In this document: piece by piece, positions 8,024 through 14,540 of the stretch
Position numbering within the stretch: position 1 is the stretch's first letter
How the letters are laid out: every line of letters starts with the position of its first letter
Assembly (NCBI GenBank): GCA_019973575.1
Contig: BPUI01000003.1
Coordinates: 186,001 to 250,000, forward strand
Length of the DNA: 64,000 nucleotides
Source: Gemmatimonadetes bacterium T265
Lineage (GTDB): Bacteria; Gemmatimonadota; Gemmatimonadetes; Gemmatimonadales; Gemmatimonadaceae
Direction of reading: 5' to 3'
Translations under genes and position numbers: made by a program
Notes under the pieces: generated by a model
The model's input: the letters and a program-made list of their open reading frames with translations, nothing else
The model's database searches: none
Told to the model about the DNA's origin: nothing

Positions 8024-8488
8024 ATGGTCCGTCCCCGGACGTGGTTCCTCGTCGCGGTGGGTGCGCTCGGTGCGCCCGCCTGCTCGCGATTCGGCTCCCG
8101 AACCGTCTTCCAGGCGGTCGCGGTCTGCCCGTCGCCCGATGGGCGGTACGCGGCGACGTTCTTCCGCCAGTCGGGCGGCGGCGCGGCCGGGTGGGCCCTC
8201 GGTGGCGTGCAGCTCCACCGGGCGGACACGGTCGCGGCCGAGGCGCGCCGGCCGGCGTTCGCCGCGTACCAGAGCTGGACGGGGCACGTGTACTGGTCCG
8301 GGCCGCGCGAGGTCACGGTCGAGTACCCGGCCGTCGCGTCGGTCCGGCTCCTCGAAGGCGTGGCGGCCCTGCCCGACACGGTCTGGATCGTGCCGCGCCC
8401 GGTGCGCGGCATGGAGCACGACCTGTCGGACGTGCCAGAGTGCGCCCCATACCGCCCGTCGTGGGAGCGCCGTGCGCCTGGCGTCTAA
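8024..8488 (+). CDS. Putative lipoprotein of unknown function (cassette 1)
   Basis: A 154-residue protein with a likely lipoprotein signal (MVRPRTWFLVAVGALGAPACS). The mature part contains VAVCPSPDGRYAATFFRQSGGG and a repeated Trp/Tyr-rich beta pattern, as in small periplasmic beta-domain proteins. I do not recognise a named family. The TAA stop (8486-8488) lies within the GTCTAAC box of attC1, the usual tight packing of a cassette gene against its attC. It shares its cassette with the small membrane protein upstream; two-gene cassettes are less common than single-gene ones. Confidence 0.65.
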   Translation: MVRPRTWFLVAVGALGAPACSRFGSRTVFQAVAVCPSPDGRYAATFFRQSGGGAAGWALGGVQLHRADTVAAEARRPAFAAYQSWTGHVYWSGPREVTVEYPAVASVRLLEGVAALPDTVWIVPRPVRGMEHDLSDVPECAPYRPSWERRAPGV

Positions 8489-8489
8489 C
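8483..8489 (+). other. attC1 left core (R'' box), separated from the rest of the site by an IS
   Basis: GTCTAAC fits the RYYYAAC consensus and overlaps the stop codon of the cassette gene. The remainder of attC1 resumes at 9845, after the IS110-family element. The adjacent CGTCTAAC octamer is repeated on the minus strand at 8762-8769, at the end of the IS transposase gene. Confidence 0.65.
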
Positions 8490-8762
8490 GCCATTCGAGA
8501 GTTCGGGCGCAAGAGGGGATAGCTCGCGCTGACGATGGCGGGTTACGCCATCGACCGGTGAGGGTGTGTAGTGCCGTGCGACCGACGGTGGGGAGCTGCC
8601 GTGGTTACCTCGTGCCGGTCTCGCCCGGATGCCTCCGTGGCGGCCACACACCATTGCGAGTTCACAGCCCGGAGGCTGGTCTCAGAGGTACAGCGGCGGC
8701 AGCGCCGCCTGGCGCCCAATCAAAGACGGCGGAGAGGCGCCGCTCCGGAGAGCGGGCTCCAG
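8490..8762 (-). ncRNA. Candidate bridge RNA region of IS110 element no. 1
   Basis: This is 273 bp of noncoding sequence between the transposase stop and the element end. It contains several potential stem-loops, for example around CCGGAG/CTCCGG. IS1111-type elements are known to encode a bridge RNA at this position. The first bases after the coding end read CGTCTAAC on the transcript strand, the same octamer as the target attC core at 8482-8489, which is what a target-binding guide would look like. RNA ends are unknown. Confidence 0.35.
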
Positions 8763-9788
8763 TTAGACGGCGGGGCTGGCCAGGCGGGGCCACTTCGGCT
8801 TCTTCGTGCGACTCAGGGGCGCGCCCTTGAATGTGCCGTTGAATGCCTCCTGCTTGGCGAGGACGTAGTAGACGATGCGCGCGAGTTCCTTGGCGACGAC
8901 CGCACGCGCGACGACCGGCGGCTTGCGGCGACACAGCCGCTGGTAGAACGCGCGGATCTCGGGGAAGTACTGGATGGCACGCACGGCGGCGTGGCTGAAG
9001 GCGAGCTTCAGGTAGCGGTTGCCGTCCTTGGTCCGCTTGTGGCGCGTCCTCCCGCCGGAGTTGCCCGCTCCCGGCACGAGCCGGCAGTAGCTGACGAAGT
9101 CGCGGGCACTCGGGAAGCGCGCGACGCCGTCGACCTCGAGCCAGATCGTGAACGCGACCACGCGGCCGATGCCAGGGATCCAGAGCAGCCGTTGTACATC
9201 GGGCGTCGGGACGAGCACCGGGTTGAGCTCCGCGGCGAGTCGCTTGGCTTGATCGCTCAAGAGCACGAACTGCTCGCCGAGCAGCCGCACTCGCAGCTGC
9301 ACGAGCGGCGGCAGCGCGTCCGGGTCGGTCACGTTGTACTGCGCGAGCAGACCGGTGACCGTGTTCTTCACTCGGACCTGCTGTCGCACGAGCTGCAGGC
9401 GGGCGCGCAGCAGATCGCGCGCCTCACGCCACTCCGCACTCACCATGTGGGCCTCTGGGACCAGATCGCCGCGGAGCAGTTGGGCCAGGGTCGCCGCATC
9501 GACAGCGTCGGTCTTCACCTTGGCGTAGCTGATCGCCTTCACATGCTTAGAGTGCGCGAGCCGGAGATCAACACCCTGAGCCCCGAGCAGGTCGCGGAGC
9601 CAGTACCAGTTCGAGGTGGACTCGACGACCGCGCGCTGCGCGCCCGGTCCACCGGGCAGCGCGGCGAAGTAGGCCGTGATCGCGGCGCGCTTCGTCGGCA
9701 GCTGCACGTCGCGCACGGGGCGGCCCTCCGCGTCGACAGTGCTGATGGCGAGCGTCCGCTTGTGCAGGTCGAGGCCGGAGTGCAGCAT
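8763..9788 (-). CDS. IS110-family transposase
   Basis: A full-length 341-residue transposase. The N-terminal DEDD RuvC-like domain has its acidic residues in GLDLHK, VVESTSNWYW and KTDAVDAATLAQLL. The C-terminal Transposase_20 domain has the helix-hairpin-helix IPGIGRVVAF and the conserved Ser region GAGNSGGRTRHKR and DGNRYLK. IS110-family enzymes perform RNA-guided recombination. The start at 9788 (MLHSGLDLHK) is the standard family N-terminus; upstream frame extensions have no homology. The frame is intact, so the element may be active. Confidence 0.93.
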   Translation of the reverse strand: MLHSGLDLHKRTLAISTVDAEGRPVRDVQLPTKRAAITAYFAALPGGPGAQRAVVESTSNWYWLRDLLGAQGVDLRLAHSKHVKAISYAKVKTDAVDAATLAQLLRGDLVPEAHMVSAEWREARDLLRARLQLVRQQVRVKNTVTGLLAQYNVTDPDALPPLVQLRVRLLGEQFVLLSDQAKRLAAELNPVLVPTPDVQRLLWIPGIGRVVAFTIWLEVDGVARFPSARDFVSYCRLVPGAGNSGGRTRHKRTKDGNRYLKLAFSHAAVRAIQYFPEIRAFYQRLCRRKPPVVARAVVAKELARIVYYVLAKQEAFNGTFKGAPLSRTKKPKWPRLASPAV

Positions 9789-9844
9789 GAGGTCTCCTGG
9801 AGAGGGTGCCGGATCGTAGGGCGCCGGCGACTCTCGGGAAACAT

Positions 9845-9958
9845 CAAGGCGTTGAAGCTGTCGGGTATGCACGGACGCTCCTGGCCCGCCTTCCGCCTCT
9901 GGTGTGTCGCGAGCCGCGGCCCGCTGTGCGAACCCGCAGCTTAACTTTGGCGTTGGGC
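9845..9958 (+). other. attC1 right portion with recombination core GTTGGGC
   Basis: The site continues with CAAGGCGTTGAAGCTG and ends with GCAGCTTAACTTTGGCGTTGGGC, whose core is 9952-9958. GTTGAAGCTG pairs with CAGCTTAAC, giving the L''/L' arms with an unpaired extrahelical base. The layout matches the intact attC2 and attC3. Only the R'' box (8483-8489) is missing here, displaced by the IS. Confidence 0.75.
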
Positions 9959-9986
9959 GCGACCAACCTACATGTCGAGATAGCGC

Positions 9987-13251: not shown

Positions 13252-13260
13252 CGCGCGGTC

Positions 13261-13267
13261 ACCTAAC
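13261..13267 (+). other. attC4 left core (R'' box), split from its right part by an IS
   Basis: ACCTAAC fits RYYYAAC and lies just after the stop of the cassette-4 gene. The site resumes with CAAGGCGTTGCAG at 14489. The bases CTAACGAG (13263-13270) also occur, inverted, at 14378-14385 inside the noncoding part of the IS. Confidence 0.6.
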
Positions 13268-13286
13268 GAGCGACTGTGGTCCGCTG

Positions 13287-14245
13287 TCAAGCCGGAGCGC
13301 TGAGCGGCGGTGACCAGGAGGTGCTGGCGCGGGCCATAGTGTTGAGGATGGTGAGCAGTTTGTGCGCGACGGCGGTGAGGGCAGCCGTGCGGGGTTTGCC
13401 CGCGGCGACCAGCCGCGCGTAGAAGGTGTGGAGGGTGGGATTGCAGCGGACGCCGGACATCGCGGCGAGGTACCGCACGGTCCGCACAACGGCGCGGCCG
13501 CCCCAGATCGTGCGCGTGCCGCGCAGGATCCCGGAGTCGCGTGGGAAGGGCGCGAGTCCGACGAGCGCGGCGACCTGGCGACGCCCGAGCCGGCCTCACT
13601 CCGGCATGCTGCCTCCCGCAGCTCGGCCGCGAGCGTGTGGGCGCCGCCCGGCCCCACGCCGGGCACGGTCTGCAGGCGCGCCGCCTCGGCCGCGCGGTCT
13701 GCGTCGGCGGCGATGGCCGCCGCGATCTGCAGGTCGAGCCGCGCGATGCGCCGCGGCAGCCAGCGCACGTGGAGCCGGAGGTCCGCCCGGAGCGCCACGG
13801 CGGCCGCGGCGATCCGGTGCTTCTCGGCGGCGATCATCGCGGTGAGCTGGCGCCGGCGCGCGCCCAACGCGGTGAGGGCGCGCGCGTCGGGGGTGGGGCC
13901 CGGACGGACGTCGGGTCGCACGCGCTCGGCGTCGTGGGCGAGCACGGCGGCGTCGACCCGGTCCGTCTTGGCGCGCACGCCGAGTGCGCGCGCGAAGTGA
14001 CGCACGCGGTCCGGGCCGGCGACGACGACCGGCAGCGCGGCGGCGTGCAGGGCATCGACGAGGAGCCGCTCGAGGCCCCCAGTCGCATCGGCGACGATCC
14101 GCTCGGGGGCAAGCCGGGTGCAGAGCGCGACGCGCTTGCGGACGCCCGCAGCGGTGTTGGGCACGCGCAGCGTGGTGCCGTCGGGCCGAACGTGCACGTC
14201 GAGCGCGGCCTTCGACACATCGACGCCGATGAAGTGGGTGGACAT
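13287..14245 (-). pseudogene. IS110-family transposase, frameshifted
   Basis: The start MSTHFIGVDVSKAALDVHV (14245) leads into a DEDD domain (VADATGGLERLL, KTDRVDAAVLAHDAERVRP) and the HhH segment VPGVGPGGAHTLAAEL. Near 13600-13615 the frame changes. The C-terminal Transposase_20 part ([18 protein letters not shown], then [22 protein letters not shown]) continues in a second frame to 13287. Short extra sequence around the junction (CGGGAGGCAGCATG) looks like a small insertion. The protein should be inactive without frameshift correction. Confidence 0.85.
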
Positions 14246-14488
14246 CGGGACCTCGGGCACGGGAGGGTAGGACGCGGCGGCGCTCAGCCTTGCGGATGCG
14301 GGCTCGGCGCGGCACACTAGCGACGGCCCTGGCGACTGTCCGAGCTTGGCACGCGGGGGAGCACGGCGACCTCGTTCCTCGTTAGCGGTCTCGCGGGGCG
14401 GACCGATGCGTTGACGGCCTACCGCACTCCGGGAACAGCTGCAACCTACGGGACGCGGGGGAGCTGCACCGCACCATACCGCACCATA
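14246..14488 (-). ncRNA. Candidate bridge RNA region of IS110 element no. 2
   Basis: Noncoding leader of the transposase, the position of bridge RNA in IS110-subgroup elements. It contains CTCGTTAG (14378-14385), inverse-complementary to CTAACGAG of the attC4 target (13263-13270), and GCGTTGACGGCC near 14409, close to the right attC flank GGCGTTGCAGCC. Two segments resembling the two target half-sites are what a target-binding loop would need. Neither RNA ends nor folding were tested. Confidence 0.3.
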
Positions 14489-14540
14489 CAAGGCGTTGCA
14501 GCCGTCCGGGTACGCCGGGGTGCCCGTGTGCGACCGCCGG
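14489..14540 (+). other. attC4 middle fragment
   Basis: CAAGGCGTTGCAGCCGTCC followed by GGGTACGCCGGGG closely parallels the corresponding parts of attC1 (9845 on) and attC2 (10430 on). The matching right end is not found before the next transposase gene, so attC4 was hit a second time or partly deleted. Confidence 0.5.

Follow-up and report, generated by a model that had tools for sequence, protein, structure and literature searches.

Why do insertion sequences (IS) from different branches of one transposase superfamily lie in the attC sites of a single chromosomal integron? We addressed this question in Gemmatimonadetes bacterium T265, using a stretch of 64,000 nucleotides (the window, C3:186001–250000 of the 5.63-Mb genome; C3 is contig BPUI01000003.1). 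Here, three elements of the IS110/IS1111 superfamily, IS-A, IS-B and IS-C, interrupt two attC sites, attC1 and attC4. Gene cassettes of an integron are joined through attC, a recombination site. We propose that branches of this superfamily carry guide RNAs whose attC-matching guides would direct insertion, and that the attC guides were acquired independently. We give this reading a probability of roughly 0.87.

IS-A and IS-B are inserted at an identical bond, CTAACG^AGGCGTTG on the top strand, which confirms the shared position claimed in an earlier note on this DNA. The note also placed the R'' boxes (8483–8489 and 13261–13267) and CAAGGCGTTG (9845 and 14489) correctly, but its element spans were off by one or two bases, the exact spans being 8491–9846 and 13269–14490. 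Removal of IS-A rebuilds attC1 as a site of 118 nucleotides (nt) whose R and L boxes pair as in intact attC. The note took 13268–14488 as the only interruption of attC4; we rejected this assignment, as IS-C splits the same site. Taking out IS-B alone leaves attC4 unrestored because IS-C displaces its L'/R' end to 16099–16120, but with both elements removed the site is ~119 nt long and has the architecture of an intact attC. The junctions of IS-C are ...CCCGGCAG on the left and CTTAACTTGTGCGTTGAGGC on the right.

The three elements are present in several copies. Identical copies of IS-A are found at C3:194490 (the window copy), C3:123318 and C2:663382, with an 81% copy at C3:127299 and a decayed one (71%) at C1:1799314. 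IS-B is 100% conserved between C3:199268 (window copy) and C3:121225, and near-identical copies of IS-C lie at C3:200570 (window copy), C3:118669 and C3:19326. Two more element types occur elsewhere in the genome. IS-D (C2:666422), which has 70% DNA identity to IS-C and carries an in-frame TGA, lies in the L'' arm of an attC, and the same attC position is occupied by a decayed relative at C1:365219, whose right flank alone is readable. IS-E (C3 ~21354–22845) lies in an L' arm. Inspection of the flanks shows that copies of every lineage interrupt attC at a bond characteristic of that lineage. A PF01548 search of the genome returned 16 IS110-type loci, 13 in attC and 3 outside, with attC making up ~0.06% of the genome (28 matches to our attC model). 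Since identical copies sit in attC at three loci for IS-A and at two for IS-B, the placement of these two elements is not due to chance. Two of the elements outside attC (C4:179785 and C4:270278) apparently lie within or beside other transposase genes.

The attC model is based on seven intact T265 sites. These are 96–120 nt long, and their R''/R' and L''/L' boxes pair on the bottom strand. Fold energies compared with shuffled sequence are not exceptional, with z-scores of −1.4 and 0.0 for the two joined sites (attC4 in its 119-nt form with both insertions removed), while two intact sites scored −0.3 and −4.0. The evidence for attC therefore comes from the architecture and length of the sites, their conserved boxes and their position. 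An Rfam scan of window positions 6000–16500 gave no match.

In a maximum-likelihood tree, the transposases form separate clades A (99/98), B (100/100), C/D (100/98) and E (100/100); E is represented by homologues of 65–66% identity and IS-B by its N-terminal 211 residues, and bootstrap values are not fully settled. Of two control rows from the genome itself, one dropped out and the other was too short for placement. E groups with the IS1111-type references IS4321, IS5708 and ISKpn2 with moderate support (91/90), and the midpoint root leaves A, as a sister group, on one side together with E and these references. A close relationship between A and B, which we also considered, is rejected by their placement in separate clades. 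IS-A and IS-C carry both PF01548 and PF02371, and the N-terminal part of IS-B, the frame of which is broken, is recognized by PF01548.

The layout of the elements agrees with the tree. The noncoding region lies downstream of the transposase gene in A and E, and upstream in B, C and D. IS-B and IS-C have the longer upstream noncoding region of the IS110 type and no long subterminal repeat, and IS-B has an AG core at each end. IS-E has 10-bp subterminal inverted repeats, and those of IS-A (CGAGAGT/ACTCTCG), with 7 bp, are as short as the lower limit of the 7–17 bp published for IS1111-type elements (PMC11208160). The earlier note had assigned IS-A and IS-B to different subgroups by layout and had called the lineages unrelated. 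Both statements hold, but its count of two lineages does not, as the genome contains four clades and five element types.

We then searched the elements for guides, reading targets on the transposase sense strand, which is the attC bottom strand. The targets are CAACGC-CT-CGTTRR for A and B, GTTAAG-CT-GCGGG for C and GGCAG-CT-TCAACGCC for D, and E inserts near GTTA^AGCTGCG. Candidate guides match the target halves, in IS110 order in B, C and D and in IS1111 order in E and A. The noncoding region of IS-B also holds ACAGTCGC, which matches the element's own right end. The two IS-C guides sit on opposite sides of a predicted internal loop, and the candidate guides of IS-D, TGACAGCC and GTTGAAG, occupy the equivalent RNA position. 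The related C and D thus carry guides at one RNA position that match two different attC positions. When the guides of C and D are swapped, the left matches fall from 9/10 (C) and 7/10 (D; 8/10 to the consensus site) to 3/10 each, and the right matches from 6/8 and 7/8 to 5/8 and 3/8. Plain matching within the IS-A noncoding region gave no guides, and its candidates emerged only through comparison of homologues. The right-guide position at the stop codon in the IS-A lineage reads YYYAAC, as does the R'' box; in one relative (L064) it reads GCATAAC, and so does the R'' box of that locus.

The guides of two lineages covary with their flanks. We compared observed matches with 20,000 shuffles (floor p = 5e-5), shared ancestry being handled by dereplication only. 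Homologues of IS-B, present in 27 of 288 genomes of the order, carry differing guides at the equivalent place. Their left guide matches the left flank at 6.14 of 8 positions against 4.88 for shuffled pairs (21 loci, p 5e-5), and the right guide matches the right flank at 5.19 of 6 against 1.98 (16 loci, p 5e-5; similar with 13 dereplicated loci), where right ends were set solely by a conserved terminal ACAG-type motif. Relatives of IS-A were collected at 34 loci, including Marinimicrobia, Ignavibacteria, Balneolota and one cyanobacterium. Those in named records, with 85%, 61% and 61% identity, come from metagenome-assembled genomes of Gemmatimonadaceae/Gemmatimonadetes; in plasmid records nothing exceeds ~35% identity to IS-A or IS-E. 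In the IS-A lineage, the left guide, which precedes TGATTGGG, matches the left flank at 4.33 of 6 positions against 2.64 for shuffled pairs (18 loci, p 5e-5; 14 loci after dereplication, p 5e-5), with scoring that permitted a one-base register shift picked after the extra T in IS-A was noticed. Homologues of IS-E were found in 20 of the 288 genomes (T265 included), with both guides in IS1111 order; those examined are mostly in attC or attC-like sites, with multiple copies in two genomes.

The proposed mechanism is as follows. Each element would encode, or in the case of IS-B would once have encoded, a DEDD recombinase together with a guide RNA (bridge RNA or seekRNA) made from the noncoding region. 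Two short guides would pair with the two target halves, at the L''/R'' junction for A and B and in the L' arm for C, and recombinase and guide RNA would insert the circular form of the element into attC by recombination, at or beside the CT core and without a long target duplication. Plausibly, attC guides have been gained repeatedly because the site is short and conserved, occurs in many copies and is located between genes.

The elements could instead recognize the folded attC hairpin, with secondary or coincidental guide matches. The attC folds on its bottom strand, this is the transposase sense strand in all five types, and Siddiquee et al. describe some IS1111 targets as potentially folded structures (PMC11187229). 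Nevertheless, guides covary with flanks base by base, also at four sites that are not attC (L102, L104, L111 and L119), and the B lineage does not keep to one strand: about eight IS-B homologues insert at YYCT^AACG, the attC R'' box, on the opposite strand, and in one of them (L089) a complete attC spans the right flank. We therefore regard hairpin recognition as improbable. Six other IS-B homologues (L102, L104, L096, L097, L111 and L117) have non-attC targets, some near palindromic repeats, with matching guides. Because homologues with other guides lie at other sites, the B lineage appears to be retargetable, with targeting set by the guide, and it has met attC in two ways, at different positions and on opposite strands.

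Slightly less probable still is a single attC-targeting ancestor of A, B, C/D and E, which would leave no convergence to explain. All four belong to one superfamily, and flanks in the A lineage are attC-like throughout: by eye (~20 loci), IS-A relatives mostly end at a GTTRRRY-like sequence with attC-like left flanks, with few exceptions (L158, L161 and L165). However, B relatives target other sites, as does one IS-E homologue outside attC (L119), whose guide matches its own right site at 10/10. Guide position and order also differ, with guides downstream in A and E and upstream in B, C and D, and the guides of C and D are different from each other. Convergent targeting, as suggested in the earlier note, is supported because A and B form separate clades, their guide RNAs flank the gene on different sides and carry the two guides in reversed order, and both guide sets match attC. 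Survivorship, in which insertion is widespread and only intergenic attC insertions persist, is very unlikely: attC is outside coding sequence and selection against gene disruption is expected, but insertions occur at single exact bonds specified by guides, and these lineages have no insertion at any other intergenic place in this genome.

Four observations weigh against independent, guide-directed insertion into attC. The transposase frame of IS-B is broken by a frameshift and a stop (window 13590–13602) that are identical in both copies, so that present activity of IS-B is doubtful. The two IS-B copies have 59 bp of right flank in common and two of the IS-C copies lie within one duplicated block, so there were fewer independent insertions than copies. 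The left guide of IS-A itself is imperfect (CGTCTT against CGCCT, with one extra T). Finally, fold energies of the guide regions are no better than those of shuffles and were not used as evidence, except that the internal loop around the IS-C guides is noted.

The duplicated block is 3.3 kb long, comprises two cassettes and ends in attC::IS-C. It occurs at C3:17566–20862 and C3:116907–120205 with 99.85% identity, and its edges on both sides lie at the integrase crossover point or a few bases off. As the same block stands in two places, IS-C is possibly part of a mobile cassette. It is conceivable, though unlikely, that IS-C at the inner L' end leaves the four integrase-binding boxes able to pair, so that the occupied cassette is still mobile and the IS rides the integron. 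The picture would be identical had IS-C inserted separately into each copy of a duplicated attC. No C-type transposase was found beyond this genome in the search of the 288 genomes.

The features of the locus are listed in Table 1. Integron cassettes require complementary start and end sequences, and by eye the four cassettes downstream of the integrase gene have them. A second integron integrase with its attI region (C3:115067–116238), 94.8% identical to window positions 6502–7673, heads another cassette array. Cassette 3 (10610–12541, plus strand) encodes a 644-amino-acid (aa) protein that matches NF053860 DS41_1_antiphage below cut-off (E 1.8e-81) and NF047389 ATPase_Sll1717 above cut-off, and is likely a cassette-borne defence gene. 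Transposase-like open reading frames lie on either side of the integron (5264–6457 and 16264–17826, both on the minus strand), and by eye are IS30-like and IS1182-like, respectively. At 27353–34659 (plus strand), long open reading frames resemble adenylation/condensation proteins of the nonribosomal peptide synthetase type, by eye only.

Table 1. Features of the interrupted integron, in window coordinates
Feature	Position	Strand	Basis
Integron integrase gene, 318 aa	6510–7466	+	TIGR02249 integrase_gron, E 2.3e-111, above cut-off
attC1 left part: R'' box GTCTAAC (8483–8489) plus G	8483–8490	+	Complementary to cassette 1 start GTTAGACGCC, ~7672
IS-A, 1356 bp	8491–9846	−	Same ends in two identical copies and one 81% copy in other attC
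IS-A candidate left guide CGTCTT-TGATTGGG, target CGCCT/TGAT	8716–8729	−	Covariation in lineage
IS-A candidate right guide CGTCTAAC, overlaps stop codon, matches R'' box	8762–8769	−	Homologue comparison
IS-A transposase, 341 aa	8763–9788	−	PF01548 E 1.1e-19; PF02371 E 3.2e-19; NF033542 IS110 RNA-guided transposase E 3.4e-59
attC1 right part (L'', stem-loop, L', R')	9847–9956	+	Joined site folds with boxes of intact attC
Intact attC, cassette 2 (reference empty site)	10421–10538	+	123.7 bits with attC model partly built from it
Intact attC, cassette 3 (reference empty site)	12561–12656	+	Same box architecture; fold scored
attC4 left part: R'' box ACCTAAC (13261–13267) plus G	13261–13268	+	Sequence
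IS-B, 1222 bp	13269–14490	−	Identical second copy at C3:121225 in another attC
IS-B candidate right guide CTAACGAG, 8/8 to reverse complement of target CTCGTTAG	14378–14385	−	Match and covariation
IS-B candidate left guide CAACGCAT, target CAACGCCT	14406–14413	−	Match and covariation of homologous guide
attC4 middle part: L'' and stem-loop, up to ...CCCGGCAG	14491–14583	+	Sequence
IS-C, 1515 bp, in L' arm of attC4	14584–16098	−	Further copies at equivalent attC position: C3:118669, C3:19326
IS-C transposase, 423 aa	14599–15870	−	PF01548 E 3.9e-35 (PF02371 also matched); NF033542 E 9.5e-55
IS-C candidate right guide CCCTGCAG, one G:U to target CTGCGGG	15991–15998	−	Match
IS-C candidate left guide AAGTTAAGC, 9/9 to L'	16020–16028	−	Match; in predicted internal loop
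attC4 right part: remaining L' and R' GTTGAGG	16099–16120	+	Sequence

Insertion into attC at a fixed place is reportedly a property of the IS1111-attC group (ISKpn4, ISPst6, ISPa25 and ISPa21), the work in question being that of Tetu and Holmes in 2008 and of Post and Hall in 2009. IS-E, and by its layout IS-A, resemble this group in type and attC target, whereas IS-B, IS-C and IS-D differ from it in carrying the guide RNA upstream, as in the IS110 type. A seekRNA has been demonstrated for ISKpn4 and ISPst6 (PMC11187229), and ISPa21, which disrupts attC, was suggested to possibly immobilize cassettes (PMC11616780). The upstream noncoding region, the order of left and then right guide and the CT core are shared with IS621 and other bridge RNA elements of the IS110 type (PMC11208160) and with ISEc21 (PMC11187229), and the arrangement of the IS-C guides around a predicted internal loop is a further likeness to IS621 and its type. 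Unlike IS621, the elements described here target attC, and identity is low (IS-A aligns at E 5.9e-6). ISPa11, of the IS1111 type, likewise has an intergenic target that is repeated and can fold, but this target consists of REP (repetitive extragenic palindromic) palindromes rather than attC and involves one lineage (PMC11187229). Group IIC introns are likewise a mobile element class tied to integrons and attC, but use retroelement chemistry (PMC7923331); none was noticed at this locus, where no search was aimed at them. Searches of the open-access literature yielded neither an IS110-type element directed at attC nor a report of several lineages converging there, most subscription papers being outside this search. 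We therefore consider IS110-type attC targeting and several-lineage convergence to be provisionally new; the IS1111-attC group itself is already known.

The presence of C, D and E at further positions within attC supports the suggestion of the earlier note that attC may be a general landing site, but the note's description of the site as safe goes beyond these data. Our data support attC as a landing site common to several lineages of RNA-guided IS, not private to one known family. As attC moves cassettes, which in other bacteria include resistance cassettes, its occupation would be a general way to break or freeze cassette arrays if several branches were independently programmed to it. The natural guide variants, with C and D at two attC positions and members of the B lineage in attC (both strands) as well as in other targets, form a panel for studying how guides and targets evolve, and may also be useful toward programmable recombinases. 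If attC::IS-C cassettes are mobile, RNA-guided elements would ride the integron besides parasitizing it.

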